Below, piece by piece: positions 7,044 to 37,670 of a stretch of 45,166 bases of DNA. The first letter of the stretch is position 1, and every line of letters begins with the position of its first letter. The translations under genes were made by a program, and so were the position numbers. The DNA is from a virus, in IMG/VR virus record IMGVR_UViG_3300050821_002199, positions 1 to 45,166 of that record; one strand, 5' to 3'. A model generated the notes under the pieces. The model was not told where the DNA came from and made no database searches. It saw nothing but the letters and a program-made list of their open reading frames with translations.

Positions 7044-7118
7044 TGCTTTACTAAATAAATAGCAAATTTGTTGGAATATAATCAAACAAAGCGGTAATTA
7101 CTGAATTACGTACTTATT

Positions 7119-14981: not shown

Positions 14982-16958
14982 TTATACACAACTGCATTTT
15001 ATATCTTCGTTAGGATATTTAACCTCAAAAACAGATGGATCGAGACTCGGATATATAATATTGTTAACTGTAGCTTGTTGGATATTATATTCGTATGGAG
15101 AATAATTTCCGTCATTTACAGTGAGATTATTTATACTTAATTGAGTTACGGCTTGAACACCATTAACTTGGGCAATAGATAGCTGAAGTTGACCTAAATT
15201 GATAGGCATATCAAAATACCACTTATCTATGTCAAAGAAGTCTTGAACAACCGCTAAACAGCTATTTAACACATCTTGTTTATTATAATTGGAATAGACC
15301 ATAATTTGGAAATTTACACCAATATTGATAATATAACCATCTATGATGTTGATGCCATCGTTTAACATCTTATATTTAGTTAGATATGTTCTTAAATTTT
15401 GAACGATTGCATCATTTATGGTGGTAAGGTTCTTATTCTGATCATAACCTAATATATATAAATTTATACCAAATGGGTCTGAATTATCATAATTTACCCT
15501 TCGGTAGTAATTACTTTGAGCATTTTGAGTCAGTGTAGCAACATCGTTATAATCAAGATATCCACTGGCGATATTATTGACCGTTAAGTTTTTATCAGAT
15601 TTTACCGTTACTTTTGATATTGATCCATAAATCGGAGACATACTATATACTCTGACGATATAATCATCCTCTGTCACCATTCTGTTCTGAGATGTGAAAT
15701 TCATTAACGCATTCTGTCTAATCTGTTCCACACTCTCTTGATCGGCTCCGCCTGTGGCCGGCGATGGATTTGATACTTTTAATGAGTTTTTAACTGTTTG
15801 TAATAGCGATAACTGCGAGGGATTTAATGTTGATAGATTGTTATTATATTGTACGGAGAAAATTGAGTTTATATCTCCTACTGGGCAATTTGATAATAAT
15901 CCACCCCCAACAATATATGTCACCGTTAATGTTGTATTAGCTGGTGCCTGTCCATAAGTGTTAGATTGAAGGAATGTGGATGAATCGAGTGACAATCCCA
16001 ATGTGGATATGTTGTTCAAACCAACCCCGATTAATTGAGCACTTGGAAATACGATCTCATCCGATATAGAATCAGCATTTGGTCCAAATTCCAAAAACGT
16101 GGAATTATCCGCAGTAACATTGACCGTAAATTTCCTATTTGTTCTTAGGCTCTTAATTAATTTAGGAACTTCTGATTGATATACATAATATTGTCCGTCA
16201 TTAGTCTGAGTATTATCTACGTTGGTAAATATCAAATCTTGACCCAAATAATCTACTTTATACCATTGATTATTATCAGAATCAGCAACGGATAGTATAT
16301 TTAATACATTGTTTTCGGGTAGAGTTAATTGATAAAATGGGACTGGACTTCCTATGGGGAAAGTTCTCGACACTATGGCTCCGGCCAATACGTTGACAGT
16401 TTTATGTAATAAGAAAAATTGAGGGATACCATAGTTATCTCTGGTGTATACCGCATCATCTCTTGGATCAAGTGCCGTATTTACGGAAAAATCTATTGGA
16501 TTTGTCGTAATATAGCTCACTCCAGATGAGTTCTTTACTTGCATATACTCACGAATACTTAAACAATAATTCGTGTCCGGAACATAATTACCAGAAGAAT
16601 CTTGTGCGGCAGGTGCTAATTGATAAATGTCCAATGTAGCCGTGGATGCTTTGGATACCGATGGTGTGTACCCCAAGAATTTAGCCAAAGCAATAACATT
16701 CTGACGTTCTTGGGCATATGGCATCAAACTCTCTTTGAATTGATAATCTGTATAATATGACAACACATCACCAACATATGCTGCCATTTCTATGTACATA
16801 GTGCCGGGCGAGGAAGTACTAAAATCTTGATAAGTTTTAGGAAAATAGGTCTGGGCGTAACTAATTAATTGATTCTTCAGAGAACCGAAATCTCTATTGA
16901 GATATTGGATGTCACGCTGTGTTACATTATTAAAATTTTTAGACGTTTTGTTTGCCAT
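14982..16958 (-). CDS. Baseplate wedge protein, T4 gp6 / baseplate J-like
   Basis: 658 residues. The N-terminus (QRDIQYLNRDFGSLKNQLI, then SPGTMYIEMAAYVGDVLSYY) and the central block from about residue 402 (GGADQESVEQIR, then SQNRMVTEDDYIVRVY) are the hallmark patterns of gp6/baseplate-J proteins. In T4 gp6 forms the continuous ring of the baseplate wedge and holds gp25 and gp53. Length is close to T4 gp6. It begins three bases after the gp25-like gene, the same order as in T4-like phages, which strengthens both calls. The leader reads TTTAATTT just before ATG with no Shine-Dalgarno. The ending carries two close cysteines (CSCV). Confidence 0.95.
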   Translation of the reverse strand: MANKTSKNFNNVTQRDIQYLNRDFGSLKNQLISYAQTYFPKTYQDFSTSSPGTMYIEMAAYVGDVLSYYTDYQFKESLMPYAQERQNVIALAKFLGYTPSVSKASTATLDIYQLAPAAQDSSGNYVPDTNYCLSIREYMQVKNSSGVSYITTNPIDFSVNTALDPRDDAVYTRDNYGIPQFFLLHKTVNVLAGAIVSRTFPIGSPVPFYQLTLPENNVLNILSVADSDNNQWYKVDYLGQDLIFTNVDNTQTNDGQYYVYQSEVPKLIKSLRTNRKFTVNVTADNSTFLEFGPNADSISDEIVFPSAQLIGVGLNNISTLGLSLDSSTFLQSNTYGQAPANTTLTVTYIVGGGLLSNCPVGDINSIFSVQYNNNLSTLNPSQLSLLQTVKNSLKVSNPSPATGGADQESVEQIRQNALMNFTSQNRMVTEDDYIVRVYSMSPIYGSISKVTVKSDKNLTVNNIASGYLDYNDVATLTQNAQSNYYRRVNYDNSDPFGINLYILGYDQNKNLTTINDAIVQNLRTYLTKYKMLNDGINIIDGYIINIGVNFQIMVYSNYNKQDVLNSCLAVVQDFFDIDKWYFDMPINLGQLQLSIAQVNGVQAVTQLSINNLTVNDGNYSPYEYNIQQATVNNIIYPSLDPSVFEVKYPNEDIKCSCV

Positions 16959-21247: not shown

Positions 21248-22213
21248 TCAAAAAGAGAACATTCCGCGCAATTTTGCTGGTAATTGTCGTGTCTTTGGTG
21301 GTGGAGTAACCGATGGTTGCACTGAACCAGTTATAGATTCCTCTATCTTACTAACTACTGGTTCCGCTATCGTATTAACAATAGATTGTCCCAATGGTGG
21401 TTCTATAATATCATTAAGTGGTATGATTTTTTCTTTGGTTATTGAGGTGTTATATGCTAATAATAGACATAACGCCAAAGGATCAAATACACTTATCAAT
21501 AGGAGTATAAACCATTTTACAGCACTATTCATACTCATATGAACTGCATCGGCCACAAATTTAAAGATTATCATATCTTTTTTGCCGCCTATTTTGGATT
21601 GAATATCCGATATTTGTGAATCTAAATTTTCTAAATCCTTGGTGCTATTCTGAATGATTTGATTCTGTGCCTCAATATCCGTATGATTTTGGTCTATCAT
21701 TTCTTTGGTCTGTTCTTGTAATTGTTCCATCTCTATTGGATTTCTAGCAATCAATAAATTCGTCACGGACTGATCCATTCTATTTTCCTGTTGTGACCTT
21801 AATTTAGTGTATTGTTCTATTTGTTTTCTTGCGTCCACAATCTTACTTTGTGAATATTCTCTCTGACTTTCTATAGTAGATATCTTCTCTTCCGATAATT
21901 GGTTTTCCATTGCAGAAGACTGATATGCTCCACTCAAATATCCAAATATACCAAGAGAAGTGATTAAACTAAGTATCAATACCGCCATTATAAGATACAC
22001 TCGAAGATATAATTGAGTTTTTTGCCAAAATCTAAATAGATAACTGGTGGCTGTGAGTTTGCCCAATTCCAGAGAAAAACTCATTATCATTGCTGCCACA
22101 AACGATCCACTAAATAATGTAGATATTCCAATTATACTATAATATGCCGCACAACCAGCAACAAATAATGCAGAGATGCCTACTAGATTCTCAAATTTGA
22201 AAATTTTATTCAT
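21248..22213 (-). CDS. Phage inner-membrane protein with long coiled coil
   Basis: 321 residues from the ATG at 22213 (MNKIFKFENLVGISALFVAG). A longer frame would run back into the upstream gene. Membrane segments are visible near residues 8-33, 37-55 and 72-98. Then a Gln/Glu/Lys-rich coiled coil covers about 105-215 (KISTIESQREYSQSKIVDAR), and another membrane segment lies near 228-255 (WFILLLISVFDPLALCLLLA). The C-terminus is Pro/Ser-rich and ends with RQLPAKLRGMFSF. I recall the SLELGKL membrane pattern from other large phages without a known role. Located between the secreted-protein genes and the sigma-like gene, it may organise the infected cell's inner membrane or serve export. That is inference. 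Confidence 0.8.
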   Translation of the reverse strand: MNKIFKFENLVGISALFVAGCAAYYSIIGISTLFSGSFVAAMIMSFSLELGKLTATSYLFRFWQKTQLYLRVYLIMAVLILSLITSLGIFGYLSGAYQSSAMENQLSEEKISTIESQREYSQSKIVDARKQIEQYTKLRSQQENRMDQSVTNLLIARNPIEMEQLQEQTKEMIDQNHTDIEAQNQIIQNSTKDLENLDSQISDIQSKIGGKKDMIIFKFVADAVHMSMNSAVKWFILLLISVFDPLALCLLLAYNTSITKEKIIPLNDIIEPPLGQSIVNTIAEPVVSKIEESITGSVQPSVTPPPKTRQLPAKLRGMFSF

Positions 22214-22215
22214 TA

Positions 22216-25200
22216 TTAAAATTGAAATGGTAGGAAATATATCACGGTTGTCGGAGCCACCACCCATACATTATTGGTGGACCAATTCAATGTAACTGCG
22301 GTTTGATTAGTAACCGTAACTTTTGTTCCATTAGCATTGTTTAAATATAATGGAAAATTTACCAAATTATCATTGAACATCGTGATTTGTGCACCCGATG
22401 GTATACAATTAGAATCACTATTTATCAATATTGTTGATTGTGTGCCAATCTGATAAAATTTCGAACCAAATCCATAACTTATATAATTAACTGCATTTCC
22501 AGTATTGAGTTCTGTCCAATAGGTATTGTTGGTTGATACCAAAGGATACGTTGTGTATACATTATTAGTTGTTATAACCAAACCATTAGTAGTATATACT
22601 TGATCATATTGTACTAAATTTGTTGGTAAAGATGAATCAAATGTTAATCCAAAATTGTATAATGTTGGAAATACATAAACACTGTTTCCACCAATACTAT
22701 TGAATTGACTGCAATCGTTATTATTAAATGAACAATTGGTAGTCCATCCATAATTAAGAGATAAGTGCCCAATAACAGTTCCGGATGTATTAGTGTTTAT
22801 CATTTTATTTCCACCAGCAATGATTGTATCCGAATGATATATGTCGTTCGCAGGGAAAGTTGTTAATCCATTCCATGAACCTATCATAAATGGCGTATCA
22901 ACAAATGTGTTATTTAAAACCAAAATATTGGATTGACATGTAAATGCTATTTCTCCGCTAGTAGACCCTGTTACTATAGAAAATTCACCATTCCCTCCAT
23001 TTGGATCAGTGTCGCAAAAATAATTATTAGATACAACACAATTAACCAAATGATTTAAATTTAAAAACATGTTACCTTGTGATGGGTTAAAATAGTAACA
23101 AGTATTATTTATAAAATAAACAAAAGGAATATTATTATAACCACGTGAAAATCCTATAGCACATTCACCGAAACAATTAGTCACAAGATTGTCCTCAAAA
23201 TACGTAGGAGAGGTCATTGATGCTGTATACATCTCAATTGGTTGTCCAACTGTGTCAAATACATTGTTTGATACTACCATAACTTGTCCGATATTAACTC
23301 CATCAAACCTATCATCGTAAAATACATTGTTGTAATATGTGCAAACATTTGCATTGGTATTGTGATTTGGATTCTTAAGCACTTCTCCTGCCCAATTATC
23401 AAATATCGTATTAGTACAATATATACTAAAATCGCAACTATAGTATGTACTTCCAGCAGACGGTACACCATTGGAATTGTATAGATATGATGCTTCTATA
23501 GCTGAATGAGTTTCATCTAAACCCATACCATCTATAGGATTCATAAAAAATCCATCATTGCGATTATAATTATCCCTAGTTGCTACATTTGGTATCCCCC
23601 CATCTATGTTTATCGATTGAATAGTTAATGGTGTATTTGTTCCACTGAAAACACCGATATTTATCTCATCAAACATGATTCCTCTTGTGGAAGCAAACTG
23701 GCCAGATGGTGGAAAGAATCCATTTCCTTCTGATCCAGAACCTATTGGTTTCACTACTCTTGCCCCCTGACCAATTAAACGAGTGTTATTAGTTCCCGCA
23801 CCAATAATATTAATCCAACCTTGTCGCAAAAATACACCACAATAAGCATATACCAAATCTGTATTGGTTGATAAAATTAAATAATTTCCAGCGGGAAACA
23901 AAAGATTAACATTTGGACTACCTGATGCATAAATATAAGACAATGCGGAATTTATTGCAGTCTCATTATCATATCCATAAGTTGTGAACGCATTATTTAT
24001 TGTATTAGAACACACCTGCGAAATATAAACATTGGTTCCATGTACTATGTTAGTTATTGTTGCAATTAAATCATAATACCCATTTGTATATACACCAAAA
24101 CTATTAATACCTAATGGAGTAATAGGTCCTGCATTATATATTTCTATGTTATCACCAATTGCAGTATTGGGAACAGAACTTGTAGTAACAATTAATGATG
24201 AATTTGATACACAGCTTGCTGAAAATTGAATAGCATCTCCTATTGCACCAAAATCTGTGACAGTTACACTGGTGATATTTGTACCCAAATTCAATATTTG
24301 TAATCCGTTCGTTAACCCACTGTGTTGAAGAATTGAGAAATTAGTGTAGCCACTATAAAAAACACCAAGACCAACTGTGGTTAGTCCTCCACCCAACGAT
24401 CCTCCTGTACCAGACATTGCACCCAACAAAACCAAATTGGTATCATACATTGTAAATATTGGGCTGGATGAATCTCCGCTGACGGCATATGACGCTGCCC
24501 ACTGTCCTTGAGTAACATTGGCATAAGGAGATATCCAAGACCCATATTCAACTCCACTACCAGTATTTACGCCCGGACCATCATATGCCGCATCTATGTA
24601 CATGTACTCAATTTGAGCGGTAGAATTGTGTGCCCAAAATGCTGGATAATTCACTATTGTTTTACCTTGTAATTTATTGATTGAGTTAGTTGAGAATAAA
24701 TATGGTAATGGAATACTTGCAGGAGCCGATCTATCCAATTGACCTATACCGAAATCGTCCCCCAATAATACTTGGTTTGTCACTACCGGAAACCATCCCG
24801 TTCCGTTAGTGTCATGAAAAGTAAGGGTTTTTCCACTGAAATTAACATGCGATGAGATGAAAACCAAATTGGATGCAACTAAACAACATTGCGATGATAT
24901 AGCCGAAGCATATCCAACGCAAGCTAAACTAGTTGGTGCAGTCCATAATGTTGAGTTTGTCCCTAACCACAAAGTAGTTGATGATGCATTTCCAGATGCA
25001 GGAGCGTAAGCCGACGTACCATTGGTTCCAAGAGATAATTGATATAGATAGTTTGTAGGATTAAATGTACCATTTGTGGTAACAACCAATCCTGCTTCCG
25101 AATTTGTTATCATTCCGTTAACCACCAAAGTTACAGTATTTGTTGCTGCTAAATCATATGTATGGGATACATTCTCACTGGTGCTAGTATAACCATCACC

Positions 25201-28116
25201 AAAATTCCATAGAAAACTAGTTCCATTTGTTCCTGTGTAATTAAAATTGACTGTTAATGGGTACGCTCCACTGGTTGGTGTGGATGCCGCAAATGTTGCA
25301 GTCGGTGCAGTGTTCAACAAATATTGGATTGATGCTGTGTAAATGACACCGGGCGACGCTGCATTGTTTGTTTCATTAAACGAATCAATTTGCATGACAT
25401 TCGCACCAGCTTTGACTGATAAAAAATTAGTATATCCATGAATATATCCCGCTGGACTACCATCATTAGTAAATATAATCGGAGCCGAACTATTTCCTAT
25501 TGTCACTCTACATAATCCGGGATTACCCAAATATCCGTAACCACCATTTACTATAACCCTATAATATCCAGAATTTGTAAAATTAAAAGTTTTTTGTATA
25601 CTACTTTCTTGATATTGTAAAGTCCACGGATTTGTGGCACCTATACCAGCGTTACTAGTGGTAGCATAATTGTTCCCAGAAGAAGCATCAAGATATGGGT
25701 TACCAGCCCTTGTCTGTAGTTTCGTAAAATCATTTTCAAATAATGTAAATATTGAATTAGTAGGGACTGGCGTATATATCGTAGGGTCATTTAAATTCAC
25801 TCCCGTCAAGTTCATTTGACCAATCACCCATGCAAACTGATTGGAAATAACATTCAATCTCTGTAATGTAATCCATGTGGTACAATCAGAAAAAGCCAAA
25901 TTAAGATTTGTTTGCATCGCATAAAGCACTGGAAAAGTAAACGTTCCGGGCAATATGGATTCAGCATAACCACTAGACTGTCCATGCATTCCAATATTAT
26001 TCGTTGTGACATTTTGCTCAAAAATATTATAAAAATTAAGCATCGGCGACGCCGATTCATTATAGAATCCAGTAAAGAATTCGCTTAATAAATTAGATGC
26101 GGTTTGAGTTTTATCCCACCATACTCGTGGATACGCGTAATAATCCCAAGGATTATCAATAATTTGATTTGGGGTAGCCTGACAACCCGCCTCAAACACT
26201 CCCTCGTTTTGTAGGAATTTAGCCCTATCAACCATACCACTTACTTCTGGAACTGGTAACAACGGATTTTGTTGTGAAAAATCCGTTAATAATAATTGAT
26301 AATCATATACACCTAAATTGGTTGTCAAATTGTTCCAAGCCACCCAATTGTTAGATATAGATATATTCTGCGGAGAAGCAGTCGATAAAACGGGTTGACC
26401 ATAAACACATACTTGCATATGGATATTTGATGGAAATTTATTGAAATTAGGAGGCGCAGCGTTAACGTTAGCATATGCCAGTCCCATTACAGTTTGATTT
26501 CCACCTAACTGAGTGACTTGATATGCAACGTTAGTAATTAAATAATAATATTGTGGTGAATATGAATAGGCTCCACCTGCATTTACCCATCCGTCTCCCG
26601 CAGGTTGTAAAGGAGAGTCCAAAGAAACTTCGGTTTGATTAGTTGACCACAGTGTGGCATCAATAGGAAGTATACCATAGTATCTGCTCCATTGTTTATA
26701 TGTTAAAGGTGATATTGAATCTAATGGATTTGAGGTGTCTACCGCAATCATTTTTTGAGCCACCCATTTTATTAAGTTCGAACTAGTTTGTGACCAAGTC
26801 AATTGATATGGACTTCCATCGTAAACTCCAGTAGTAGGATTTACATATTGACCTCCTCTATATCCCCACCAATTAGTATCCACAAGAACACCATTAATCA
26901 CTTGGTTAGTTAATTCTAGTATTGAGCTAGGAACAACATTATTATAATTATGTGGATATCCTGAAAATTCACTATTATTTGTTGAGTAATAAATACTCAA
27001 TCCACCGGGTGCCGATGCCTTTTGTATTTCGTTCCCAGAAAAAATAAATCCATTTTCGCTACTCGTCCAATGGTTTCTCCACCAATATAAATAACCCTGT
27101 CTAGTTGGGCCAACAATTCCAAAACTCCAAGGATAATATTGTTGCACACTAAAATTAGCATATATACTTCTAACGCTTGGAGAAAAGTTATATGGCAGAG
27201 ATGACAATGATACTCCATTACCATAAGGTATATAATCACCATCTTCATCAGCATAAACCCATCGTACTCCTTGTTTTTCCAAAAACGTGATTACTCCAAA
27301 CCACACATCCATATATGGCCATCCAGTAAAATCAACCTCACGAGTGCCCTGAACATTCACCGTGATGTTTGTTGGTAATGTTCCATTTAATATATTTGCC
27401 TGTTGTGCGGCATAGTTTGGGGCAAGATTTTGTAAATCGATCACTCTATAAATTACACCGGGATATGAATTGGTTTGTGATGATAGAATAATTGGCACCG
27501 GCTTACCTTCCAATTCACTCAAATAATAACTCAAATCAGAAGAATCTTGCAACAATCCACCGTTTACAGATGTGGTTGCTGCAACCACAGCATCTAAATT
27601 TGGATAATTTGTTCCAACGCAACCATGAATCTGGTTAGTATAGCAATCCCACTTTAATGTTGCTGGAGGAGAAACCAATACCCAATTATTATTTGTGGAA
27701 AACCAATTTTGATTTGTTTGCAACAATAATGTTACATATCTACCAATTAATGGGCTGAAATGTATAGAGGCTTGAGTTTCTAAGTTGTCGCCCACATTAA
27801 ATACTCCATTAGAAAAACATGCGTCATATGGAACCCATTGTAATCCCGCAAATGTTGTGGCCGGGCTTGTATTCCCAATATACACTGAAATTGTTCCAAT
27901 AGGATTAGTACCAAAACCAGTAGTATTTGGCCAACTTGGAGTCACAATGTAATTTGTTCCTGTTGTAAAAATACCATCAATTGTATTAGTAGTACCCATA
28001 TCCAATGTAAATTCATTGACCGCATTAGTGATTACTGCACTATATGGGATTATTGATGCATTTATATCACAGAATATAAATACACTTAATAGAAATAATA
28101 GAACTTTTTTAAACAT
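22216..28116 (-). CDS. Secreted giant multidomain protein: DUF4838-like glycosidase, PKD, trypsin-like and beta-helix domains
   Basis: 1966 residues with a Sec signal peptide (MFKKVLLFLLSVFIFCDINA, likely cut after DINA). Visible parts in order: a beta-sandwich like an F5/8-type domain (about 21-155). Next is a DUF4838-type region, the family related to alpha-glucuronidase (about 185-700, with WPYMDVWFGVITFLEKQGVRW and WWDKTQTASNLLSEFFTGFY). A CBM-like sandwich follows (about 805-935), then a PKD domain (about 937-1003, FLWNFGDGYTS). A trypsin-like domain has His1090, Asp1121 and Ser1216 in GDSSSP. A pectate-lyase-3-like right-handed beta-helix covers about 1284-1800, with a beta-rich C-terminus. 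It may act on polysaccharide and protein outside the cytoplasm. Between fibre and baseplate genes such a secreted protein is unexpected. Domain calls are by eye. Enzyme activity and substrate are unknown. Confidence 0.8.
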   Translation of the reverse strand: MFKKVLLFLLSVFIFCDINASIIPYSAVITNAVNEFTLDMGTTNTIDGIFTTGTNYIVTPSWPNTTGFGTNPIGTISVYIGNTSPATTFAGLQWVPYDACFSNGVFNVGDNLETQASIHFSPLIGRYVTLLLQTNQNWFSTNNNWVLVSPPATLKWDCYTNQIHGCVGTNYPNLDAVVAATTSVNGGLLQDSSDLSYYLSELEGKPVPIILSSQTNSYPGVIYRVIDLQNLAPNYAAQQANILNGTLPTNITVNVQGTREVDFTGWPYMDVWFGVITFLEKQGVRWVYADEDGDYIPYGNGVSLSSLPYNFSPSVRSIYANFSVQQYYPWSFGIVGPTRQGYLYWWRNHWTSSENGFIFSGNEIQKASAPGGLSIYYSTNNSEFSGYPHNYNNVVPSSILELTNQVINGVLVDTNWWGYRGGQYVNPTTGVYDGSPYQLTWSQTSSNLIKWVAQKMIAVDTSNPLDSISPLTYKQWSRYYGILPIDATLWSTNQTEVSLDSPLQPAGDGWVNAGGAYSYSPQYYYLITNVAYQVTQLGGNQTVMGLAYANVNAAPPNFNKFPSNIHMQVCVYGQPVLSTASPQNISISNNWVAWNNLTTNLGVYDYQLLLTDFSQQNPLLPVPEVSGMVDRAKFLQNEGVFEAGCQATPNQIIDNPWDYYAYPRVWWDKTQTASNLLSEFFTGFYNESASPMLNFYNIFEQNVTTNNIGMHGQSSGYAESILPGTFTFPVLYAMQTNLNLAFSDCTTWITLQRLNVISNQFAWVIGQMNLTGVNLNDPTIYTPVPTNSIFTLFENDFTKLQTRAGNPYLDASSGNNYATTSNAGIGATNPWTLQYQESSIQKTFNFTNSGYYRVIVNGGYGYLGNPGLCRVTIGNSSAPIIFTNDGSPAGYIHGYTNFLSVKAGANVMQIDSFNETNNAASPGVIYTASIQYLLNTAPTATFAASTPTSGAYPLTVNFNYTGTNGTSFLWNFGDGYTSTSENVSHTYDLAATNTVTLVVNGMITNSEAGLVVTTNGTFNPTNYLYQLSLGTNGTSAYAPASGNASSTTLWLGTNSTLWTAPTSLACVGYASAISSQCCLVASNLVFISSHVNFSGKTLTFHDTNGTGWFPVVTNQVLLGDDFGIGQLDRSAPASIPLPYLFSTNSINKLQGKTIVNYPAFWAHNSTAQIEYMYIDAAYDGPGVNTGSGVEYGSWISPYANVTQGQWAASYAVSGDSSSPIFTMYDTNLVLLGAMSGTGGSLGGGLTTVGLGVFYSGYTNFSILQHSGLTNGLQILNLGTNITSVTVTDFGAIGDAIQFSASCVSNSSLIVTTSSVPNTAIGDNIEIYNAGPITPLGINSFGVYTNGYYDLIATITNIVHGTNVYISQVCSNTINNAFTTYGYDNETAINSALSYIYASGSPNVNLLFPAGNYLILSTNTDLVYAYCGVFLRQGWINIIGAGTNNTRLIGQGARVVKPIGSGSEGNGFFPPSGQFASTRGIMFDEINIGVFSGTNTPLTIQSINIDGGIPNVATRDNYNRNDGFFMNPIDGMGLDETHSAIEASYLYNSNGVPSAGSTYYSCDFSIYCTNTIFDNWAGEVLKNPNHNTNANVCTYYNNVFYDDRFDGVNIGQVMVVSNNVFDTVGQPIEMYTASMTSPTYFEDNLVTNCFGECAIGFSRGYNNIPFVYFINNTCYYFNPSQGNMFLNLNHLVNCVVSNNYFCDTDPNGGNGEFSIVTGSTSGEIAFTCQSNILVLNNTFVDTPFMIGSWNGLTTFPANDIYHSDTIIAGGNKMINTNTSGTVIGHLSLNYGWTTNCSFNNNDCSQFNSIGGNSVYVFPTLYNFGLTFDSSLPTNLVQYDQVYTTNGLVITTNNVYTTYPLVSTNNTYWTELNTGNAVNYISYGFGSKFYQIGTQSTILINSDSNCIPSGAQITMFNDNLVNFPLYLNNANGTKVTVTNQTAVTLNWSTNNVWVVAPTTVIYFLPFQF

Positions 28117-28122
28117 ATACTA

Positions 28123-30534
28123 TTAATGCTGAACTATATAACTACCAATTAATGAACAATTAGCAACGTTGGTGACACATATAACTTCATTTGGAAATAC
28201 AGTTAACGTATTTAACGTTACAGGATTTGTCGCTGCAAACGCCTCATTTGGATTATCCAAACTATAAAGACCTGATGTAAAATTGGTTATATAAATATCA
28301 GAATTAATCAAACTGGCACTATTGATGGTTTGGACAGTTGCCGTAACATCCAATCTAAATGGATATATATTTGTCCATGGCACATTAATAGTTAATGGAT
28401 TAATTAATTTAACATAAGGATATTGATTTGGTGGGAACTGTATAGGAATAGGATTCGTTGACACAATTAAATTATCAACAAAGAAATTTGCTTGATATGG
28501 TGATGTTAAATTAATTCCTGATATTCCCAAACTATGGTTGGCTGCTTCACTAACATAATTGTTGCCGGATGTTGGGATTGTTCCATTTGTGGAAAATGCG
28601 GCCCAACAAGTAGCCGATGTAGAATAAAACATCCATATATCGTATGCCACATTTGGCACCATAGCCCCAACCGATGACGCCGTGGTTGATCCGTTATATA
28701 ATTGTATATTACCACCAGTAGTAATGTTAACATTGGCAGCTTGTCCAGAATTACCTAAAATGAATGGTTGTGCACATAATTGAAATGCGCTATCCGTGGA
28801 TCCGGGAAGAGCACTCATCACCAAGTTCATATGAACATATACATTGGTCACGTTGATACTTGTAAACTCAAATCCAGCATATACTGTTCCAGCAGTTCCA
28901 AAAAATTCCGCCGATGAATTCCCAACTATAGCGTTAGTTCCAGTTTGATGCCAGTCTACTTCTCCCAGCATACTATTGAAATTCAATGGATACCCGCCAA
29001 AGTTATTTGTCCAAATACCATAAATATTTGGCCAAGGAGTACAACCAGTCTCAAATTGCTCATGAATAAGGTTGGTCATCCATGTTCCTGAAGCAGCATT
29101 AAATTCAGGATACATTGTATAGGTTTTAGGCCATTCATTTTGGTTAGTAATACCACTTGAAAACATCACATGATCTGATGATGCTGAATCAGGAGACACC
29201 AAACACATAAGATTAAGGATGCTGGTTAATGCTGGGAAATTAGTGAATGAAATATGATTCTGGAATGTACAAGTAGCACTTGGTAACCACCAATTAGTTC
29301 CTGTTGATAAACTAATATTATTAGTAAGACCAGTATCAATGTGTCCAATTTGTATACCAAAAAAGTTTGTCATGAACTGTGGATAAGTTGCCAAAAATGC
29401 CATAGAATCCCAACTCCATCTTCCGTTTTGTACATAGTTTCCAGACTGTGTCACATATGTAACCAAAGGACTCTGTGCCTCAAGATATTGAGAGAAATTT
29501 GTTGTCAATAAGTATATATTTGTACCAGCTTGATAATCAACCCAATACTGTGGTATGTTCGTTGGCCATAACGGAGCACCATATGAATTATCTGTGGATG
29601 GTGAGGTAGTTAAGTTAAACTCAAATAGATTACTTGGATATCCGCCACCCATAATAACTGCATATGAACAAAAATTACTGATTAATTGGGTTCCGGTTCC
29701 TCCGTATTGGTCTGCTGGACTATTTAGAAAATCACTTAATGCTACTGAAGGTCCAGCTATATATAAAACAACACTATTAGTCTGTTGTCGTGACAATAAC
29801 TTTCTCATGGAAAGTGTCATGTTGGGATATGATGCATTATTCTGATAACGAGAAATATATTGATTGTTATTAGTATATGAAACCGAATATGTGACTGACT
29901 GATTTGTGGATGACCCAATCTCCGAACTCACTCCCATATAATTCAATATCGAATCTAATGCTGGAGTACTATATGGAGCATTAGGTCCCTCAATATTTTC
30001 ATAGCCAATTATTCTAATATAACCTTTTCTTTGCATACCAGCGGCGAATTGGGCATTCATTGCCTGACCAATATCACCACCCTGCGATTCTAATACAAGA
30101 ACCGGTTGAGCAGCGGAAATTCCCGATGCAGGAATATTTGCCATTAATTGACTAGCAATGATATAAGCCTGTGCCGCCGAAACCAAAGAATTTGTATTAG
30201 GTGGCACAGTTTGTGAAGTGTTCGTTGCGTTATCTCCAGCCATATATGGAGCAGGAACTAGAGAAATTCCATAGTTAGTGGAACCATCTGAATTAGTCCA
30301 TATAGTAAGTGTTATTGAACTTCCGTTTGTCAGCATTCTAGCAGCTACGGAAGCAGGTAATAAATTGTTAAAACTAGCGGTTCCACCAAAAATTCCAGAA
30401 ATCTTACCACCGGGATGCACTATGTTTCCACTATTATCGACTGAAACGGTTGATGTTCCAGCCAATGCAGTTGTTGTGAACAATAATATCGTGACAAACA
30501 CGCTTAATATTATGTTAATTATATTTTTCTTCAT
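28123..30534 (-). CDS. Secreted nucleoside-hydrolase-like protein with lectin-like domain, probably inactive
   Basis: 803 residues from the ATG at 30534 (MKKNIINIILSVFVTILLFT). The signal peptide should be cut after ALA at about residue 25. A longer frame without a signal peptide start is rejected. Residues about 145-440 follow the inosine/uridine nucleoside hydrolase pattern: GGDIGQAMNAQFAAGMQRKG, then YIAGPSVALSDFLNSPAD, AVIMGGGYPS, FEFNL and WPTNIPQYWVDYQAG. The pair of aspartates that normally follows the first GD (GDxDD) is replaced by Gly-Gln, so calcium binding and catalysis are likely lost. Residues about 495-695 look like a LamG/concanavalin jelly roll. The last 100 residues are beta-like. 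The gene ends six bases before the giant secreted gene, so the two are probably expressed together. Confidence 0.8.
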   Translation of the reverse strand: MKKNIINIILSVFVTILLFTTTALAGTSTVSVDNSGNIVHPGGKISGIFGGTASFNNLLPASVAARMLTNGSSITLTIWTNSDGSTNYGISLVPAPYMAGDNATNTSQTVPPNTNSLVSAAQAYIIASQLMANIPASGISAAQPVLVLESQGGDIGQAMNAQFAAGMQRKGYIRIIGYENIEGPNAPYSTPALDSILNYMGVSSEIGSSTNQSVTYSVSYTNNNQYISRYQNNASYPNMTLSMRKLLSRQQTNSVVLYIAGPSVALSDFLNSPADQYGGTGTQLISNFCSYAVIMGGGYPSNLFEFNLTTSPSTDNSYGAPLWPTNIPQYWVDYQAGTNIYLLTTNFSQYLEAQSPLVTYVTQSGNYVQNGRWSWDSMAFLATYPQFMTNFFGIQIGHIDTGLTNNISLSTGTNWWLPSATCTFQNHISFTNFPALTSILNLMCLVSPDSASSDHVMFSSGITNQNEWPKTYTMYPEFNAASGTWMTNLIHEQFETGCTPWPNIYGIWTNNFGGYPLNFNSMLGEVDWHQTGTNAIVGNSSAEFFGTAGTVYAGFEFTSINVTNVYVHMNLVMSALPGSTDSAFQLCAQPFILGNSGQAANVNITTGGNIQLYNGSTTASSVGAMVPNVAYDIWMFYSTSATCWAAFSTNGTIPTSGNNYVSEAANHSLGISGINLTSPYQANFFVDNLIVSTNPIPIQFPPNQYPYVKLINPLTINVPWTNIYPFRLDVTATVQTINSASLINSDIYITNFTSGLYSLDNPNEAFAATNPVTLNTLTVFPNEVICVTNVANCSLIGSYIVQH

Positions 30535-30539
30535 AAAGT

Positions 30540-33500
30540 TTAGGTAGTTGGTGTGAATAATAAAGTTTCTTGACCAACTGATCCGGATATCTGTATTGCA
30601 TACCAAGAATTGGTTGTGGGATTAAACAATCTCATAAATGATGATGTTTGTGCTGTATTTGCATAAGAACTTGTTCCTGTAAATAACGATGCGGTAATTG
30701 CGGAACATGATATGTTTCCATACACGTCTAATGAATTTATTGCTGATGCTGTTATTGCTTTACCAATCACAACTCCACCGTTTGTTGTGTCTATCGAAAA
30801 TCCACCGACTTCATTTGATATTTTTCCAGACCAGATATTTATCTGATTTGTACTAAATATACCAGTAGTTAAATCTTCTCCAGTATAAAATGATATTCCA
30901 AATATAGACTCAAAATTAGCAGCATAGTCTAATTGTGTCATGTAAATCGGAGATTCAGGTACATAACGGGTAACTTGCCAAGGATTTGATAACCACGAAG
31001 TGAGCATGAGTCGTTTACCATCCCCCACAATTTCATTAGGTAAATTAACCCCACAATTAAATGTAGCCATCAGCATTGTGGTCGGGTCTAGTCTATATAA
31101 ACTTGAAGTTATTGATGAACCCATCCACACATATTCATTATCATACCACATTGCATACATATTGTCTACAAAGAAACTAGTATAACTTAAATTGGTTTTA
31201 TTAATAACATATACTTGATTAGTTACAGACCCCTCGCATCCCAAATATACATGCGATGGAGTGATTGCCATATCATCAGTTATAAAATCAGCACCCACCA
31301 CTGATGCTGAAATATATGACAATGTTGTTGGATTCATTCTTGCTATAGCACCATTAATGTCTTGTGAAGGAATCCATAAATATTGACCATCGTATTTTAT
31401 GTTAGCTATTCTTCCAAATCCAGCAATCGATGCCGATGCAACCAATGCATAATTTGACATCTGATACTTAAACACATTGTTATCAGCATTATTTATTACA
31501 TATAGATATGTCCCATCATTAGTAAGTGATGACGCTCTGCCAAAACTACCACTTTGTCCATTATATATCACCAATGAAGATGACAGTGTGGTTGGGTTTA
31601 TTAAAAATACATTACCACCAACAGTTGAGGCAAATAATTGATTCGAGCTTGAATTGTATGTAAATTCCCCAATTGTATAACCTACTGATCCAGTCAAACT
31701 TGCCGTTTGATATGTCATACTGTCCATATTTACTCTGGCTATAACAGAATTACTACTACTAGGCTCAAATGTAGTTCCCCCATACCAAAAGTTTCCAATC
31801 ACTATTGTTGCTTGGAATCCGGGCGCTCCATTTGTATTTGCTATGAATACAGATTGAGTATTGGATGGCTTGAATGGAACATTATACCAACTTGCCAAAT
31901 CAAAATTAGACACGTTATTTGTAAGAATTCCAGTAAACGTTGAGGCATTATATCCATTCGGTAAGAAACTGGATGACAACGAGAAGTTTGCATAGGAACT
32001 ACTATTACTATTATTGCTTCCACTAACGTATGATGCTGTTAATGCATACGATGCTGTTAATGAAGATGTTGCGTATGATGATGATACTACATATAAATTC
32101 GATGAACTCAACGAATATGAAGCGGTTAACGAATTCAATGCAAATAATGCATAGGAACTACTATTGCTATTATTGCTTCCACTAACGTATGATGCTGTTA
32201 ATGCGTTTACTGCGTTACTTGCCGTTCCATAAAAGTTGGACGCCGAAACATACCCAGTTGTTGTATAATTACCTGATCTATCAATAATGGCAATTGGTTG
32301 ATTACTAGGATTGTTTAAAGTAAAAGGGACTGTTGTGGAACCAGAACCTTCGATAATATCAATACCACCACCAATTAATCCCATGGATGAACCGATAGTA
32401 TCATTTAACATTAATCCATTTCCACTAGTAGCAACGGTGGAACCAAGATTGTTATATCTTAAATTGGTTGCGGTATTTGCATATGAACTAGATACCACAA
32501 CACCACTGATATAACTAGCTGTTAATGCATTCAATGAATATGAACTGGTTGGTGGAACATACGCGACACCATTCTTATTTAAATTAGTAGTAAAATTGAT
32601 ACTTCCTACTACATCCAATGATGCGCTAGGACTATTGGTGTTTATTCCCACTGATCCTACCGAAAAATCAGAACGTTGACCAGTCTTTAGTATGATATTT
32701 GCTCCACTTCCACTGGAAAGTCCATTTCCACCTTGTACAGCAATACTAGACCCATTATAGAATGAGCCATTATATCCAAATCCAGTACTGAGTGTTATAC
32801 TTGACCCTGAATTGCTACCACTTAATGCCCCATTAGCAGATATTATATTTACATTACCGACACTATTACCAATAAATCCGTTAACATCTAATACCTGTTG
32901 TGGATTAGTATTATTTATACCAACCATACCAGTTCGTGTTATCTTTATCGTGGCACCATTGGTATTCAATATCATATTACCAGTACCATCATCTACAGCT
33001 ATAGCATTAGTGTGTGCAAACCTATTATTTACAATGTTTCCATCCAAATAACTTGAAGAAATAGCAGATGATGCTGTAAATGGATTGCCTGACTTTGATA
33101 AATTTCCAGAAAAATTAATATCCCCATTAACGTCCAATGTATGTTGTGGTAATTCAGTATTTACCCCAAAGAAATCACCGTTTCCACTTCCGCCGACATA
33201 AGAATTATTACCAAGTCCACCAAATCTATATTGAACTATCCCACTTCCTGATGATATAAAATAAAATATACCAGTACCATCAAAATGCCAACTACCTTGG
33301 GCAGCATTAGATTGTAAAATTGTATTACTGCCATTATCCAAAGTAAGGTTTATACCATTACCCGTAGAACTATTACCAATACTTCCACTAATATCCAATG
33401 CATATTTTGGATTATTTTGTAATATTCCAGTATAACTTCCGGAATTGGTTATGTTAGGTAATTGAATTGGTGACCAACTTGCACTGTTTGCAAATCCACT

Positions 33501-34019
33501 GCTTGATGCGAAAATGTTTGCTCCGTTAACGTAACTGGATGTCACACTGTTTTGGCTTAATATAGAATAACTTGCCGTTCCGTTATTTGGATTTGCTGGA
33601 TTATACTGCAAAAATAAAGTTGCGGATGACGATGGAACCAATGTAGCAGTAAATGGATTTAATACCACATTTGCCACACTTGCATATCCCGCAGATATAG
33701 CGTTTGTACTGAAACTACTTGAATTTGCGTAACTAGAACTTATAGCCTTTACCGCATAACTGGCTGAAGAAACATTCGGAAATTTCAAAAAGCTTGCTGT
33801 AGCACTGGATGTAGCATAGGATGCAGTTATTGCATATTTTGAAGTTCCACCAAAATTCTGAACACTGCCAGTTGACGTTTTAAAATAAGCGTCCAAATCA
33901 CCAACAAGTACTTTGAACGTGGTGTTATCAGATATATTTGAAATAGGAAATATTGCACTAGCTGTTATTTGACTAACAGTTAGCTGTGCTAATTGACTAA
34001 TTGGTATAGTATCTGCCAT
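30540..34019 (-). CDS. Tail fibre protein with ASYA repeats and a YncE-like propeller
   Basis: 1159 residues. The N-terminus (ISQLAQLTVSQI, then FPISNISDNTTFKVLVGDLD) is a variant of the attachment module seen in neighbouring fibres. The shaft is built from repeats of the type TASYALTASYV and of VGINNTNPQQVLDVNG, both familiar from trimeric phage fibres. Residues about 725-1010 differ: strands such as TNDGTYLYVINNADNNVFKY and KYDGQYLWIPS repeat in the way of a YVTN/YncE beta-propeller, which would sit as a globular domain near the tip. The C-terminus has no S74 intramolecular chaperone motif that I can see. Within the gene a 55-base direct repeat encodes a duplicated SGSNNSNSSSYA stretch. Confidence 0.85.
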   Translation of the reverse strand: MADTIPISQLAQLTVSQITASAIFPISNISDNTTFKVLVGDLDAYFKTSTGSVQNFGGTSKYAITASYATSSATASFLKFPNVSSASYAVKAISSSYANSSSFSTNAISAGYASVANVVLNPFTATLVPSSSATLFLQYNPANPNNGTASYSILSQNSVTSSYVNGANIFASSSGFANSASWSPIQLPNITNSGSYTGILQNNPKYALDISGSIGNSSTGNGINLTLDNGSNTILQSNAAQGSWHFDGTGIFYFISSGSGIVQYRFGGLGNNSYVGGSGNGDFFGVNTELPQHTLDVNGDINFSGNLSKSGNPFTASSAISSSYLDGNIVNNRFAHTNAIAVDDGTGNMILNTNGATIKITRTGMVGINNTNPQQVLDVNGFIGNSVGNVNIISANGALSGSNSGSSITLSTGFGYNGSFYNGSSIAVQGGNGLSSGSGANIILKTGQRSDFSVGSVGINTNSPSASLDVVGSINFTTNLNKNGVAYVPPTSSYSLNALTASYISGVVVSSSYANTATNLRYNNLGSTVATSGNGLMLNDTIGSSMGLIGGGIDIIEGSGSTTVPFTLNNPSNQPIAIIDRSGNYTTTGYVSASNFYGTASNAVNALTASYVSGSNNSNSSSYALFALNSLTASYSLSSSNLYVVSSSYATSSLTASYALTASYVSGSNNSNSSSYANFSLSSSFLPNGYNASTFTGILTNNVSNFDLASWYNVPFKPSNTQSVFIANTNGAPGFQATIVIGNFWYGGTTFEPSSSNSVIARVNMDSMTYQTASLTGSVGYTIGEFTYNSSSNQLFASTVGGNVFLINPTTLSSSLVIYNGQSGSFGRASSLTNDGTYLYVINNADNNVFKYQMSNYALVASASIAGFGRIANIKYDGQYLWIPSQDINGAIARMNPTTLSYISASVVGADFITDDMAITPSHVYLGCEGSVTNQVYVINKTNLSYTSFFVDNMYAMWYDNEYVWMGSSITSSLYRLDPTTMLMATFNCGVNLPNEIVGDGKRLMLTSWLSNPWQVTRYVPESPIYMTQLDYAANFESIFGISFYTGEDLTTGIFSTNQINIWSGKISNEVGGFSIDTTNGGVVIGKAITASAINSLDVYGNISCSAITASLFTGTSSYANTAQTSSFMRLFNPTTNSWYAIQISGSVGQETLLFTPTT
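31991..32204. repeat. 55-bp direct repeat inside the tail fibre gene
   Basis: Copies at 31991-32045 and 32150-32204 differ at one base by eye. Their offset is 159 bases, exactly 53 codons, so the reading frame is kept. Each copy encodes a segment ending in YVSGSNNSNSSSYA. It looks like a recent in-frame duplication of a fibre shaft unit. Confidence 0.85.
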
Positions 34020-34022
34020 AAA

Positions 34023-35363
34023 TTAATGTCCTATTACTTGAAAATTCATTCCCCATAAATCATTAGGAGTTCCTGCCCATCCTCCCTGTGCTGACATAGT
34101 AAACGCCGTAGTTGTTCTGTTGTTGAGTATTGATGCGGTTTGTGGCAAAAATACAGATGCATGTCCTGAACCAGTAGTAATAGTCATTTCCCAACCATTA
34201 CCTATCACTATATAATTAGATGAACTGACCGCATTAACAAATGTAACTCCCCAACAATACTGTGAAAACGATGATCCTGAATATACATTCAATAATCCAA
34301 GAGGAGAAACGGATGCTATATTATATCCTGTAACTACTGTTAATGGATCGGTGGTTTTAGACCCAGCATTACTACCCGTTACCATTGCAAATCCCTTAAT
34401 TGTTGTTCCAGACGGTGTAACATAACTAGCGGACTGGGCAAAACTACTTGTTATAGCATAACTACTTGTTCCTGTGTTCTGACCAATATAATTTATATAA
34501 CTACTGGTCTGTGAAATGGTTGAATTCAATGAATTAACGGAATTGGAAGACCAACTACTTGTTCCCGCCAAACTTGAGGTAATTCCCGTGGCATTTATTA
34601 TACCTATGACTTGCAAATTACTAGAAGGATTCATGGTTCCAACACCGACAAATCCATTTGGTAGAACGGTCAAGGTGGCACTTGGTGGGTTGGATGATGG
34701 ATTTCCTCCTAAATATACAGGTATTGGATTGGTAGTACCATTATAAATACCATTCATCCATAAACCAACATTATTAATGGAATCATTTAAACTTGATGTT
34801 ATACTTCCAGATGGTGCCAAATAAATTTCAGCATGAGCAGAAGAAGTTGGGGTTTGTGATGAAAAATATAATCCAGAATCCGTATTTGTGTAAGTTGGAT
34901 AAAATGTTGATATCTTTTGCCCATTAACATTAAAATATAAATTACCCAAAACACCATTGCTACCAGAAACATAACTTGCACTAGTTGCAACCGTTAAAAA
35001 TCCCGAAGCAACATAACTTGCGCTTGTGGCGAAACTCGATGTGGCAGCATAACTTGCGCTCCCAGCCAAACTCGCCGTTATACTAGGAGTTTGAATTGAA
35101 TTAGAAACAAATAATATACTTGAACTATAGTTATAATTTAGATTGTTTGATGCTGTTAATGCACTTCCAGTCTGGAATATTATATTTTTATCAGAACCAA
35201 TACTTGATGTATTAAAAAATGCATTCTGAACACTACTTAGGCTTATTCTGTACGTGGTTAAGCTACCGCTATTAACAATGGGAAGAAAATCCGCCATTGA
35301 TATAAGGCTTCCAGTTTCTGGGTTTAACTGGCTAATTTTAATTGACGCAGAATAATTTATCAT
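34023..35363 (-). CDS. Tail fibre protein
   Basis: 446 residues, starting MINYSASIKISQLNPETGS. The first 45 residues (ISQL, then DFLPIVNSGSLTTYRISL) are nearly the same as in the 498-residue neighbour and resemble the fibre-attachment module common in myovirus fibres. The shaft holds SASYAATSSFATSASYV-type repeats and a VGTMNPSSNLQVIG repeat. The C-terminal 110 residues (from about GFAMVTGSN) are non-repetitive and beta-like, probably the receptor-binding head. No collar or S74 domain is seen. A TATTTAT element lies eight bases before the start. Confidence 0.85.
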   Translation of the reverse strand: MINYSASIKISQLNPETGSLISMADFLPIVNSGSLTTYRISLSSVQNAFFNTSSIGSDKNIIFQTGSALTASNNLNYNYSSSILFVSNSIQTPSITASLAGSASYAATSSFATSASYVASGFLTVATSASYVSGSNGVLGNLYFNVNGQKISTFYPTYTNTDSGLYFSSQTPTSSAHAEIYLAPSGSITSSLNDSINNVGLWMNGIYNGTTNPIPVYLGGNPSSNPPSATLTVLPNGFVGVGTMNPSSNLQVIGIINATGITSSLAGTSSWSSNSVNSLNSTISQTSSYINYIGQNTGTSSYAITSSFAQSASYVTPSGTTIKGFAMVTGSNAGSKTTDPLTVVTGYNIASVSPLGLLNVYSGSSFSQYCWGVTFVNAVSSSNYIVIGNGWEMTITTGSGHASVFLPQTASILNNRTTTAFTMSAQGGWAGTPNDLWGMNFQVIGH

Positions 35364-35382
35364 ACTTTATAATAAATAGTGA

Positions 35383-36879
35383 TTACCCACCCAAAGATGC
35401 TGTTTGCCATCCAGATAATCCAGATGCTGTACCAATTCCTGTATAAATGTATAATTTGCTTCCACTATAGAACATACTACCAGTATTTTGTGAAATTACA
35501 GATGAACTTAATGGGCTAATAAAGATTCCAACATTTATATAATCTAACGAACCGCTCATGTAACTTGAGGTTGTTGCGGACGTGGCATTACCATTCAAAC
35601 TTGCAGTAATTACTGAACAAGAAATGTTACCGATTACATCCAACATATTTTTAGGAGTCGTTGTATTAATACCCACCATACCATTCATTTGACTACCTAA
35701 TGTTCCACTTGTTTCTTTACCAGTAGTTAAAATAATGTTACCACCCAAACTATTAGTTACGGCACTCCCACCTTGGACTTGAATTTGTGCACCAGCATAA
35801 AAAGTAAATGATCCAGACGTTGTGCCGTTATAGCCTAATCCAGCTTCTAGATTTATATTATTAGCTTTGTAAGAACTTGTGCCAGACATACTAGAGTTTG
35901 CCGATACTAAATTCATATCACCTATACTATTACCAACAATACCGCCACCAACGTCCAAACCATGAATATATTGTGGGTTTGTTTGACCAATACCCACTTT
36001 ATGACCTGTTACATCGGAAATATCAGTTAATTGATTTGGTGCAAAACTTGCGCTAATCGCATTAAAAGGAATATATGTAGTACTTCCACTTAATAAATTT
36101 CCAGTAAAATTAATACTCCCGCTAACATCGATTGAATATGCTGGACTAGGATTGTTGATCCCAACAAATCCCAGAGAATAATATATGTTTGATCCAGCAT
36201 TAATCCATTGACTTGAAGTGAACTGTGAACCACCATTTTGTGCATAACTTGCTGATAACGCGTAACTTGCACTAGGTGGAACATATAGAGAATTATTGTT
36301 ATTCAAACTGCCACTAAAATTGATATTTCCATTAACTGTCAACCCAGTTCGGTCAACCAATAAAAGATCGGCTCTAGCACCATCACTTATGCCGCCGCCA
36401 ACGATGAACAAACTTGAGGTATTTTGTGGGTTTTTTACATTAAATTGTCCAACAACAGTTTGATAGTTTCCATATGCATAAGTCTGATATCCACCAGCAT
36501 GGCTAGCTAATCCATATGCGTAAGTTTGATATCCTTCGGAGTGAGCATATACTCCTGATGTAAAAGTTTGGCATCCTTCAGCATGACTATATAACCCAAA
36601 TGTTTGTGAACCTGAACCATTCTGTAAGGATTTACTAACATAATTAAATTCTAAACTATTATCACCATAAACGATTCCGCCTTGATTATAAAGAATTTGT
36701 TCATTGGAACCACCCAATAAAGAAGCCAATCCACCTTGAGCCAAGGCCACTATATCACCTAACGCAATTCTATAGGTTTTAAGACTTCCGCTATCAACGA
36801 TAGGTAAAAAATCATCATTCGTTATACCACTACCAGTTAACGGTTGTAATTGACTAATTTTAATTGCAACATTTGCCAT
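35383..36879 (-). CDS. Tail fibre protein with YadA-head-like repeats
   Basis: 498 residues from the ATG at 36879 (MANVAIKISQLQPLTGSG). The longer frame overlaps the upstream gene and is rejected. The N-terminal module KISQLQPLTGS then DFLPIVDSGSLKTYRIAL matches the 446-residue fibre. Residues about 93-146 repeat the pattern HSEGYQTYAYGLASHAGGYQ, that of left-handed beta-roll repeats in YadA-type adhesin heads, which also occur in phage fibres. Further on come PAYSIDVSGSINFTG and PKNMLDVIGNISC repeats. The C-terminus ends in a short domain (KLYIYTGIGTASGLSGWQTA). It is likely a trimer. Host binding is inferred from the fold type. Confidence 0.85.
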   Translation of the reverse strand: MANVAIKISQLQPLTGSGITNDDFLPIVDSGSLKTYRIALGDIVALAQGGLASLLGGSNEQILYNQGGIVYGDNSLEFNYVSKSLQNGSGSQTFGLYSHAEGCQTFTSGVYAHSEGYQTYAYGLASHAGGYQTYAYGNYQTVVGQFNVKNPQNTSSLFIVGGGISDGARADLLLVDRTGLTVNGNINFSGSLNNNNSLYVPPSASYALSASYAQNGGSQFTSSQWINAGSNIYYSLGFVGINNPSPAYSIDVSGSINFTGNLLSGSTTYIPFNAISASFAPNQLTDISDVTGHKVGIGQTNPQYIHGLDVGGGIVGNSIGDMNLVSANSSMSGTSSYKANNINLEAGLGYNGTTSGSFTFYAGAQIQVQGGSAVTNSLGGNIILTTGKETSGTLGSQMNGMVGINTTTPKNMLDVIGNISCSVITASLNGNATSATTSSYMSGSLDYINVGIFISPLSSSVISQNTGSMFYSGSKLYIYTGIGTASGLSGWQTASLGG

Positions 36880-36884
36880 AAATT

Positions 36885-37667
36885 TTATATAAAGTACCCA
36901 ACTAATCCAACTACCCAACCCCCATTAAAGTTGGAGTTTATTCTACTCCAATAAATAGTTCCATCACCATTAATAGGAAATATTCCTTCGGCATTACTTA
37001 TTCCAGCGCCTGAACCACCACCCTGTCCTCCAGTAATCAAAAGTCTCTGTGTGGATATCGATGTGTTACTTATGTATATCACACCAAATGTTCCACCATT
37101 CTGTGCATCACTATGTGCACCTTGTATAATTAATCCAGTAACATTACTTGGTACTCCTGCATTAGCTGTAGCATTCCAAGTGCCGTTCGCAGCAGAAGAA
37201 GGACTCCCAACCACTGTTGCTCCAGCGAAATTTCCAGATGGAAAACATTCAGAAATGAAAGCACTTGATCCAGTTGTTCCACTATAAGCTATTATAACTG
37301 GTACTGGTAAGAACACCAATCCGGTTTTCACTACGGCTGCGTTCACAGCATAACTTGCCGTTCCATTATTTTGACCCGGAGAGTAATTCAAAAAATTGGT
37401 AGAATTACTAACAATGGCTGTTTGAGAATTGATTGCATTACTTGCTGTGATGAAATATGTCAGAGGAAGTAATCCACTTGCTAAACTTGCTGTACCATAT
37501 ACATTTGGAACACTAATACTGTTATTGAATTGTATTATTCCTCCATATGGATTATTTGGGGTAATAGATATATTATCTGTTGCCGCATTGCCAAGTAAAT
37601 ATGATGCCGTGACCGCATTTTGTAATTGGCCTACCTGTGGTGCTACTATTTTATATGTACTACTCAT
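36885..37667 (-). CDS. Short tail fibre-like protein
   Basis: 260 residues, starting MSSTYKIVAPQVGQLQNAVT. It lacks the ISQL-type N-terminal module of its neighbours but has the NAVTASYLLGNA and NGTASYAVNAA type repeats of phage fibres in its first half. Residues about 130-260 form a Gly/Ser/Asn-rich beta domain (TGLIIQGAHSDAQNGGTFGV) with a stretch GGQGGGSGAGISNAEG, probably a small globular tip. It starts three bases after the collar-protein gene. It could be a fibre tip or a fibre-assembly partner for a neighbour; the sequence alone does not decide. Confidence 0.8.
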   Translation of the reverse strand: MSSTYKIVAPQVGQLQNAVTASYLLGNAATDNISITPNNPYGGIIQFNNSISVPNVYGTASLASGLLPLTYFITASNAINSQTAIVSNSTNFLNYSPGQNNGTASYAVNAAVVKTGLVFLPVPVIIAYSGTTGSSAFISECFPSGNFAGATVVGSPSSAANGTWNATANAGVPSNVTGLIIQGAHSDAQNGGTFGVIYISNTSISTQRLLITGGQGGGSGAGISNAEGIFPINGDGTIYWSRINSNFNGGWVVGLVGYFI

Positions 37668-37670
37668 AAA

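Follow-up and report, generated by a model that had tools for sequence, protein, structure and literature searches.

The gene located at 22216..28116 on the minus strand of the window (the whole analysed stretch of 45,166 nucleotides, a 45-kb record of an uncultured virus) has about an even chance, judged from sequence comparisons, of belonging to an exchangeable cassette of large, late, Sec-exported and modular proteins whose targets would be envelope glycans or those of the surrounding matrix. It is a single open frame over 1966 codons encoding the giant protein P0001, which is predicted to be exported, is under purifying selection and has a relative on the contigs L002-L005. The initial annotation had called a protein of 1966 residues at this position without giving a strand, and this call was confirmed, the strand being the minus one. 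Its title implied a lone oddity; this view was abandoned, since P0001 appears to be one member of a modular cassette of proteins with predicted export.

The surroundings of the gene are those of a large myovirus-type late region that includes long tail proteins, with a baseplate wedge gp6-like gene at 14982-16958 and a tail-collar fibre gene at 37671-39626. Relatives of the window gp6 were found in a 484-kb uncultured phage, in Microcystis phage Mel-JY01 and in the Flavobacterium phages immuto. The operon around P0001 is tight, with intergenic gaps of 2-6 nt, and no promoter excess was seen in the tail-gene operon that holds the cassette. Placement in a phage late operon, as described initially, was retained, and the direct neighbours were found to be a second signal-peptide gene of the cassette upstream (28123..30534, minus strand, 803 aa from ATG) and, downstream, the gene of a phage membrane protein adjoining the cassette (21248..22213, minus strand), the latter being kept in phages that do not carry the cassette (L030, L059, G005 and G015). 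From start-codon reading, the upstream gene is best taken to begin at 30534 and the membrane protein gene at 22213. No relatives of the 803-aa protein were found in viral contigs. Its middle part looked by eye like a nucleoside hydrolase; this candidate was rejected, with no Pfam or PDB sequence match.

Signal peptides were called with our own rule-based script, which looks for a positive n-region, a hydrophobic core and small residues at positions -3 and -1. A Sec-type signal peptide is predicted for residues 1-20 of P0001 (28057..28116, minus strand; MFKKVLLFLLSVFIFCDINA followed by S), comprising the n-region MFKK, a 12-residue hydrophobic core and a cleavage site between DINA and S. The relative of P0001 has MVIMTKLLAIFLSLLFFCISVES in the same place, which shows 30% identity to the signal peptide of P0001 and keeps the N-h-c form. 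Both the prediction and the form kept in the relative bear out the Sec signal peptide named in the initial annotation. A strong predicted signal peptide (MKKNIINIILSVFVTILLFTTTALA followed by G) is also present on the 803-aa protein, and these two adjacent cassette genes are, besides the conserved membrane protein, the positives in the window; the ordinary fibre genes at 30540-39626 were negative with the same predictor. In the related phage, a signal peptide was predicted in exactly 4 of the 78 ORFs of its 100-kb contig, and all four are consecutive. Pfam searches matched neither a T9SS C-terminal nor a PEP-CTERM sorting domain in P0001 or its relatives and, since no outer-membrane targeting signal was recognised, P0001 could remain periplasmic until lysis. 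As a separate observation, a freshwater relative of 185 kb (L065) contains at 2535-2885 a gene for a signal-peptide protein of 116 aa, the Ig-like region of which resembles window ORF 4758-7085 (E 9e-7).

Related genes and exchange between phages

A scan of IMG/VR returned a sole relative of P0001, a protein of 1676 aa encoded on four near-identical contigs (L002-L005) of one other phage, from peat. The two proteins share 61% identity, namely 66% over the first 935 residues and 51% over the C-terminal half, and the 1676-aa relative lacks the PKD and trypsin-like parts of P0001 (alignment gap), which suggests that these parts are an optional insert. The relative is encoded by the third gene of the signal-peptide run in the related phage (86808-98013 of contig G002, 2188-13393 of L003), whose products comprise 926, 466, 1676 and 622 aa. 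Two GDSL hydrolase regions are present in the 926-aa protein, and three of the four proteins begin with a common header of about 65 residues, signal peptide included, followed by bodies that differ. Moreover, the C-terminal 90 aa of the 803-aa protein of the window resemble the C-terminus of the 622-aa protein (30% identity, E 1.5e-5).

Otherwise, BLAST found only PhoH and a GIY-YIG gene in common between both phages and no tail genes; a further match of 27 residues is probably due to chance, and gp6 is absent from the contig of the related phage. Closer kin of the window phage, with gp6 identities of 67-76%, do not have the cassette: in L031 the fibre gene is followed directly by a sigma-factor-like gene and the cassette is missing at the site, in L030 a small gene that is Hsp20-like by eye occupies the site, and in G005 no cassette was found in the 49-kb late region, the exact site falling at the contig end. 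Concerning the sharing of the gene with related phages, a point raised in the initial annotation, close kin proved to lack it and an otherwise unrelated phage to possess it, which taken together argues for an exchangeable module. The cassette carriers found belong to two phage lineages. No relatives of P0001 were found in cultured phages and plasmids, nor by pattern scans of GTDB genomes, which can miss distant relatives and hence do not imply absence from bacteria. It is unlikely that an assembly chimera lies behind the relative because it has genes of a phage as neighbours in each of four separate assemblies of metagenomes, albeit as near-identical copies from one phage. Elsewhere in the related phage (L013, 3146-10295), a run of genes was seen that resemble, by eye only, nucleotide-sugar and glycosyltransferase genes, namely GDP-mannose dehydratase-like and NAD-epimerase-like genes and transketolase-like halves.

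Domains and selection

The best supported enzyme-like part of P0001 is the DUF4838 region (PF16126) at residues 519-696 (26029..26562, minus strand; E 1.6e-12; 47.6 bits against a cut-off of 26.6). The match is partial, covering profile positions 149-323 of 325, which is about half, and it recurs in the relative (E 1.3e-9, 38.1 bits). The DUF4838-type region proposed from the sequence was thereby verified, its Pfam match lying above the curated cut-off. In the literature searched, no enzymatic activity was established for DUF4838, and we know of none. The most conserved segment, residues 151-330 (27127..27666, minus strand), with 77% identity and a pN of 0.167, has no Pfam match of its own; by eye it resembles the alpha-glucuronidase N-terminal-like region located in front of DUF4838, a resemblance offered as a lead only. 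The label of glycosidase given initially is plausible via DUF4838, whereas the evidence for a protease consists of a motif.

Comparison of P0001 with the 1676-aa protein gave a pS of 0.76, which is saturated, and a pN of 0.26, indicating strong purifying selection on the frame. By segment, pN was lowest at residues 151-330 (0.17), followed by DUF4838 (0.20 for residues 519-700), which suggests that the enzyme-like part is the constrained part, and it was highest (0.42) in the C-terminal domain (residues 1861-1966; 22219..22536, minus strand), the fastest evolving part with 38% identity.

The PKD domain named in the initial annotation was likewise recovered above the Pfam cut-offs, at residues 935-1013 (25078..25314, minus strand), with 39.4 bits against 27 for PKD_4 (E 6.5e-10) and 27.6 against 23.5 for PKD; it also matched PDB 2kzw (E 5.7e-7). 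The adjacent trypsin-like candidate at residues 1011-1275 (24292..25086, minus strand) carries the motif SGDSSSPIF. It has no Pfam match, and no relatives of it were found among viral contigs. Similarity was detected to residues 91-380 of ORF 205-4746 (BLAST E 0.010, Smith-Waterman z 6.3), and the GDSSSP and LD motifs of P0001 align with this sister domain, the placement of the His being uncertain. The proposed trypsin-like domain is thus weakly indicated, by its GDSSSP motif and the sister-domain similarity. ORF 205-4746 itself encodes an FG-GAP repeat protein that has no signal peptide, and its trypsin-like candidate (window 3607-4476) reads TGDAGNPIF; with GDAGNP in place of GDSGxP, it may be related to the P0001 domain and inactive.

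Residues 1276-1860 (22537..24291, minus strand) form a candidate right-handed parallel beta-helix. A PbH1-like motif was counted 14 times in P0001 as compared to 4.2 in shuffled sequences (p < 1/2000) and 10 times as compared to 3.8 in the relative (p 0.0035), which is consistent with the pectate-lyase-like beta-helix suggested initially, while no Pfam, PHROG or PDB profile matched the region and the PL6 match in PDB was not significant (E 0.37). For the CBM-like domain that had been suggested as well (residues 800-935), no Pfam family was found, and this assignment was not upheld. P0001 matched no family in PHROG and NCBIfam, and AlphaFold models of both of its halves, built on two-sequence alignments only, reached mean pLDDT values of 25.7 and 28.7, too low to support any fold.

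Thr-Asn pairs, host traits and the question of virion assembly

A further trait of the predicted exported proteins is an excess of the ordered pair Thr-Asn, which was counted in 87 ORFs of at least 150 aa from both phages. The six signal-peptide proteins contain 197 pairs where 77 are expected (2.56-fold) and the other 81 ORFs 192 where 214 are expected (o/e 0.90), and by z-score the six occupy ranks 1-6 of the 87. In the predicted exported proteins the density is about one pair per 35 residues, and the 803-aa protein (28123-30534) has 27 pairs as compared to 9.0 expected. P0001 and the 1676-aa protein are homologous and not independent, and the other four proteins each show the excess. The reverse order, Asn-Thr, is not enriched in the signal-peptide proteins (0.82), and virion-type proteins rich in Thr and Asn have a Thr-Asn o/e of 0.91. 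The same difference is seen between homologous domains: the trypsin-like domain of P0001 contains 3.8 pairs per 100 residues (o/e 4.8), its counterpart in the virion-type ORF 205-4746 1.0 (o/e 1.05). A DNA repeat as the source of the excess was rejected, as all eight codon pairs are used as in the background; this use of synonymous codons indicates that selection acts on the protein. The idea that signal-peptide proteins of phages have the excess in general was rejected as well, the small signal-peptide ORFs of G010 having none overall. As to the host, the one Verrucomicrobiota plasmid compared (Termitidicoccus) showed no Thr-Asn excess, a result based on just 3 signal-peptide ORFs.

Independently of the signal peptide, the Thr-Asn signature supports export and indicates that the six proteins belong to a single class and share their fate, and our leading guess is that Thr-Asn marks a secretory modification site in the host. 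Shine-Dalgarno sites are few in both phages, and position -1 of ATG is T in 70-74% of cases, which sets the two apart from the Flavobacterium and Microcystis phages compared. Bacteria in which Shine-Dalgarno sites are scarce include Bacteroidota and some Verrucomicrobiota (PMC10783764). We consider, tentatively and with more doubt than confidence, that phages of such a host (with Verrucomicrobiota or Bacteroidota as candidates) place a Thr-Asn export code specific to the host in the proteins that they export. It would consist of modification sites, for example for glycosylation, or of a sorting signal, would be missing from the virion proteins of these phages and would mark a class acting outside the cytoplasm.

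These data bear on the first of three less probable alternatives, which are, in falling order of probability, a tail spike of the virion, an auxiliary metabolic role and exclusion of superinfection. P0001 might be a tail spike or fibre of the virion, assembled into the tail with a hydrophobic N-terminus that is cleavable or stays uncleaved. Its gene lies among fibre genes, a beta-helix is typical of tail spikes, and a post-signal motif in three related proteins resembles the ordinary fibre N-terminal motif; this fibre-like header was convincing by eye and was rejected as a candidate, the profile giving only E 3.2. The explanation is nevertheless unlikely: the fibre genes of the window have no signal peptides, no virion-type protein shows the Thr-Asn excess, and the full-length gene, N-terminus included, is common to phages with dissimilar tail genes, which is hard to fit with an N-terminal virion anchor. 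PHROG profiles recognised no virion anchor or tail family in P0001. Export rather than incorporation into the virion, as argued in the initial annotation, is accordingly favoured as a prediction by the conserved signal peptide, the adjacent signal-peptide gene, the four-gene run and the Thr-Asn signature.

Proposed function and known systems

Following the reading of an exported cassette, we propose that its proteins would be made late, together with the tail proteins, and exported by the Sec machinery of the host before lysis. They would fold, and probably be modified, in the periplasm and might then work on envelope glycans or on those of the surrounding matrix, with the DUF4838 and beta-helix parts as putative carbohydrate-active or carbohydrate-binding parts. 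The likeliest benefit would be a loosened capsule, exopolysaccharide or surrounding matrix, allowing the progeny to leave and to avoid sticking to debris; receptor stripping against re-infection would be a less favoured variant.

An auxiliary metabolic role, in which the enzymes digest environmental polysaccharides of peat or plants and thereby feed the infected host, appears somewhat less probable than a tail spike. DUF4838, GDSL and the beta-helix candidate would fit such a role, and soil and peat phages with glycoside hydrolase genes are reported in two studies (PMC6172770, PMC9485262). Yet a tail-gene operon that shows no promoter excess is probably expressed too late to aid metabolism much, and no transport or catabolic genes were recognised near P0001. 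Removal or masking of the phage receptor on infected or neighbouring cells is the least probable alternative: it would agree with predicted export, with the carbohydrate-active candidates and with exchange between phages that maybe share a host type, as their translation start traits suggest, but superinfection exclusion proteins are usually small and early, and P0001 is giant and encoded in a late operon.

For the favoured exported cassette, several known systems offer partial parallels. P0001 resembles bacterial DUF4838 proteins in its profile match above the cut-off and in the alpha-glucuronidase-N-terminal-like region (by eye) in front of it, and differs from them in being phage-encoded, in covering only profile positions 149-323 and in joining this part to PKD, trypsin-like and beta-helix candidates. 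With the beta-helix tail spikes and depolymerases of phages it shares the location near fibre genes and the beta-helix candidate; in contrast to these, it has a signal peptide and the Thr-Asn signature, no recognised virion anchor and no PHROG match. WceF of Pantoea stewartii, a bacterial enzyme of tailspike fold that has a Tat signal peptide and trims exopolysaccharide (PMC7949094), might serve as a working model by analogy, since it is a beta-helix glycan enzyme made for export; it differs in being a bacterial gene product, a single beta-helix trimer that depends on Tat instead of Sec and has no DUF4838 or PKD. The Bacillus phages SP10, phiNIT1 and SPG24 carry genes for GH32 levan enzymes proposed to be secreted although they have no signal peptide (PMC4595243). 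Like P0001 these are phage-encoded, and as members of a glycosidase family they are directed at an extracellular matrix, as P0001 might be; unlike P0001 they have no signal peptide and are not multidomain giants. In soil, an active viral chitosanase (PMC9485262) and phage glycoside hydrolase genes in peat viromes (PMC6172770) would be similar as carbohydrate enzymes of soil phages; as described in the available text of these studies, they do not form a multi-gene signal-peptide cassette in a tail operon. By profile, P0001 is a DUF4838 and PKD protein and not a member of a recognised tail-spike family; it would work most like WceF and the levan enzymes while belonging to neither.

Phage-encoded carbohydrate-active proteins are already known as a kind, and the most novel element is the Thr-Asn signature. 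Tailed phages are thought to act on surface glycans mainly via virion-bound tail spikes. If unrelated phages exchange a tail-operon cassette of giant Sec-exported, enzyme-like proteins, this would give them a second way of changing the host surface or matrix, by free enzymes, which bears on soil polysaccharide turnover and on biofilm control. If Thr-Asn reflects a secretory modification by the host, it would reveal an undescribed system of protein modification or sorting and, if true, would give a sequence-only test for export-destined phage proteins and for host assignment.
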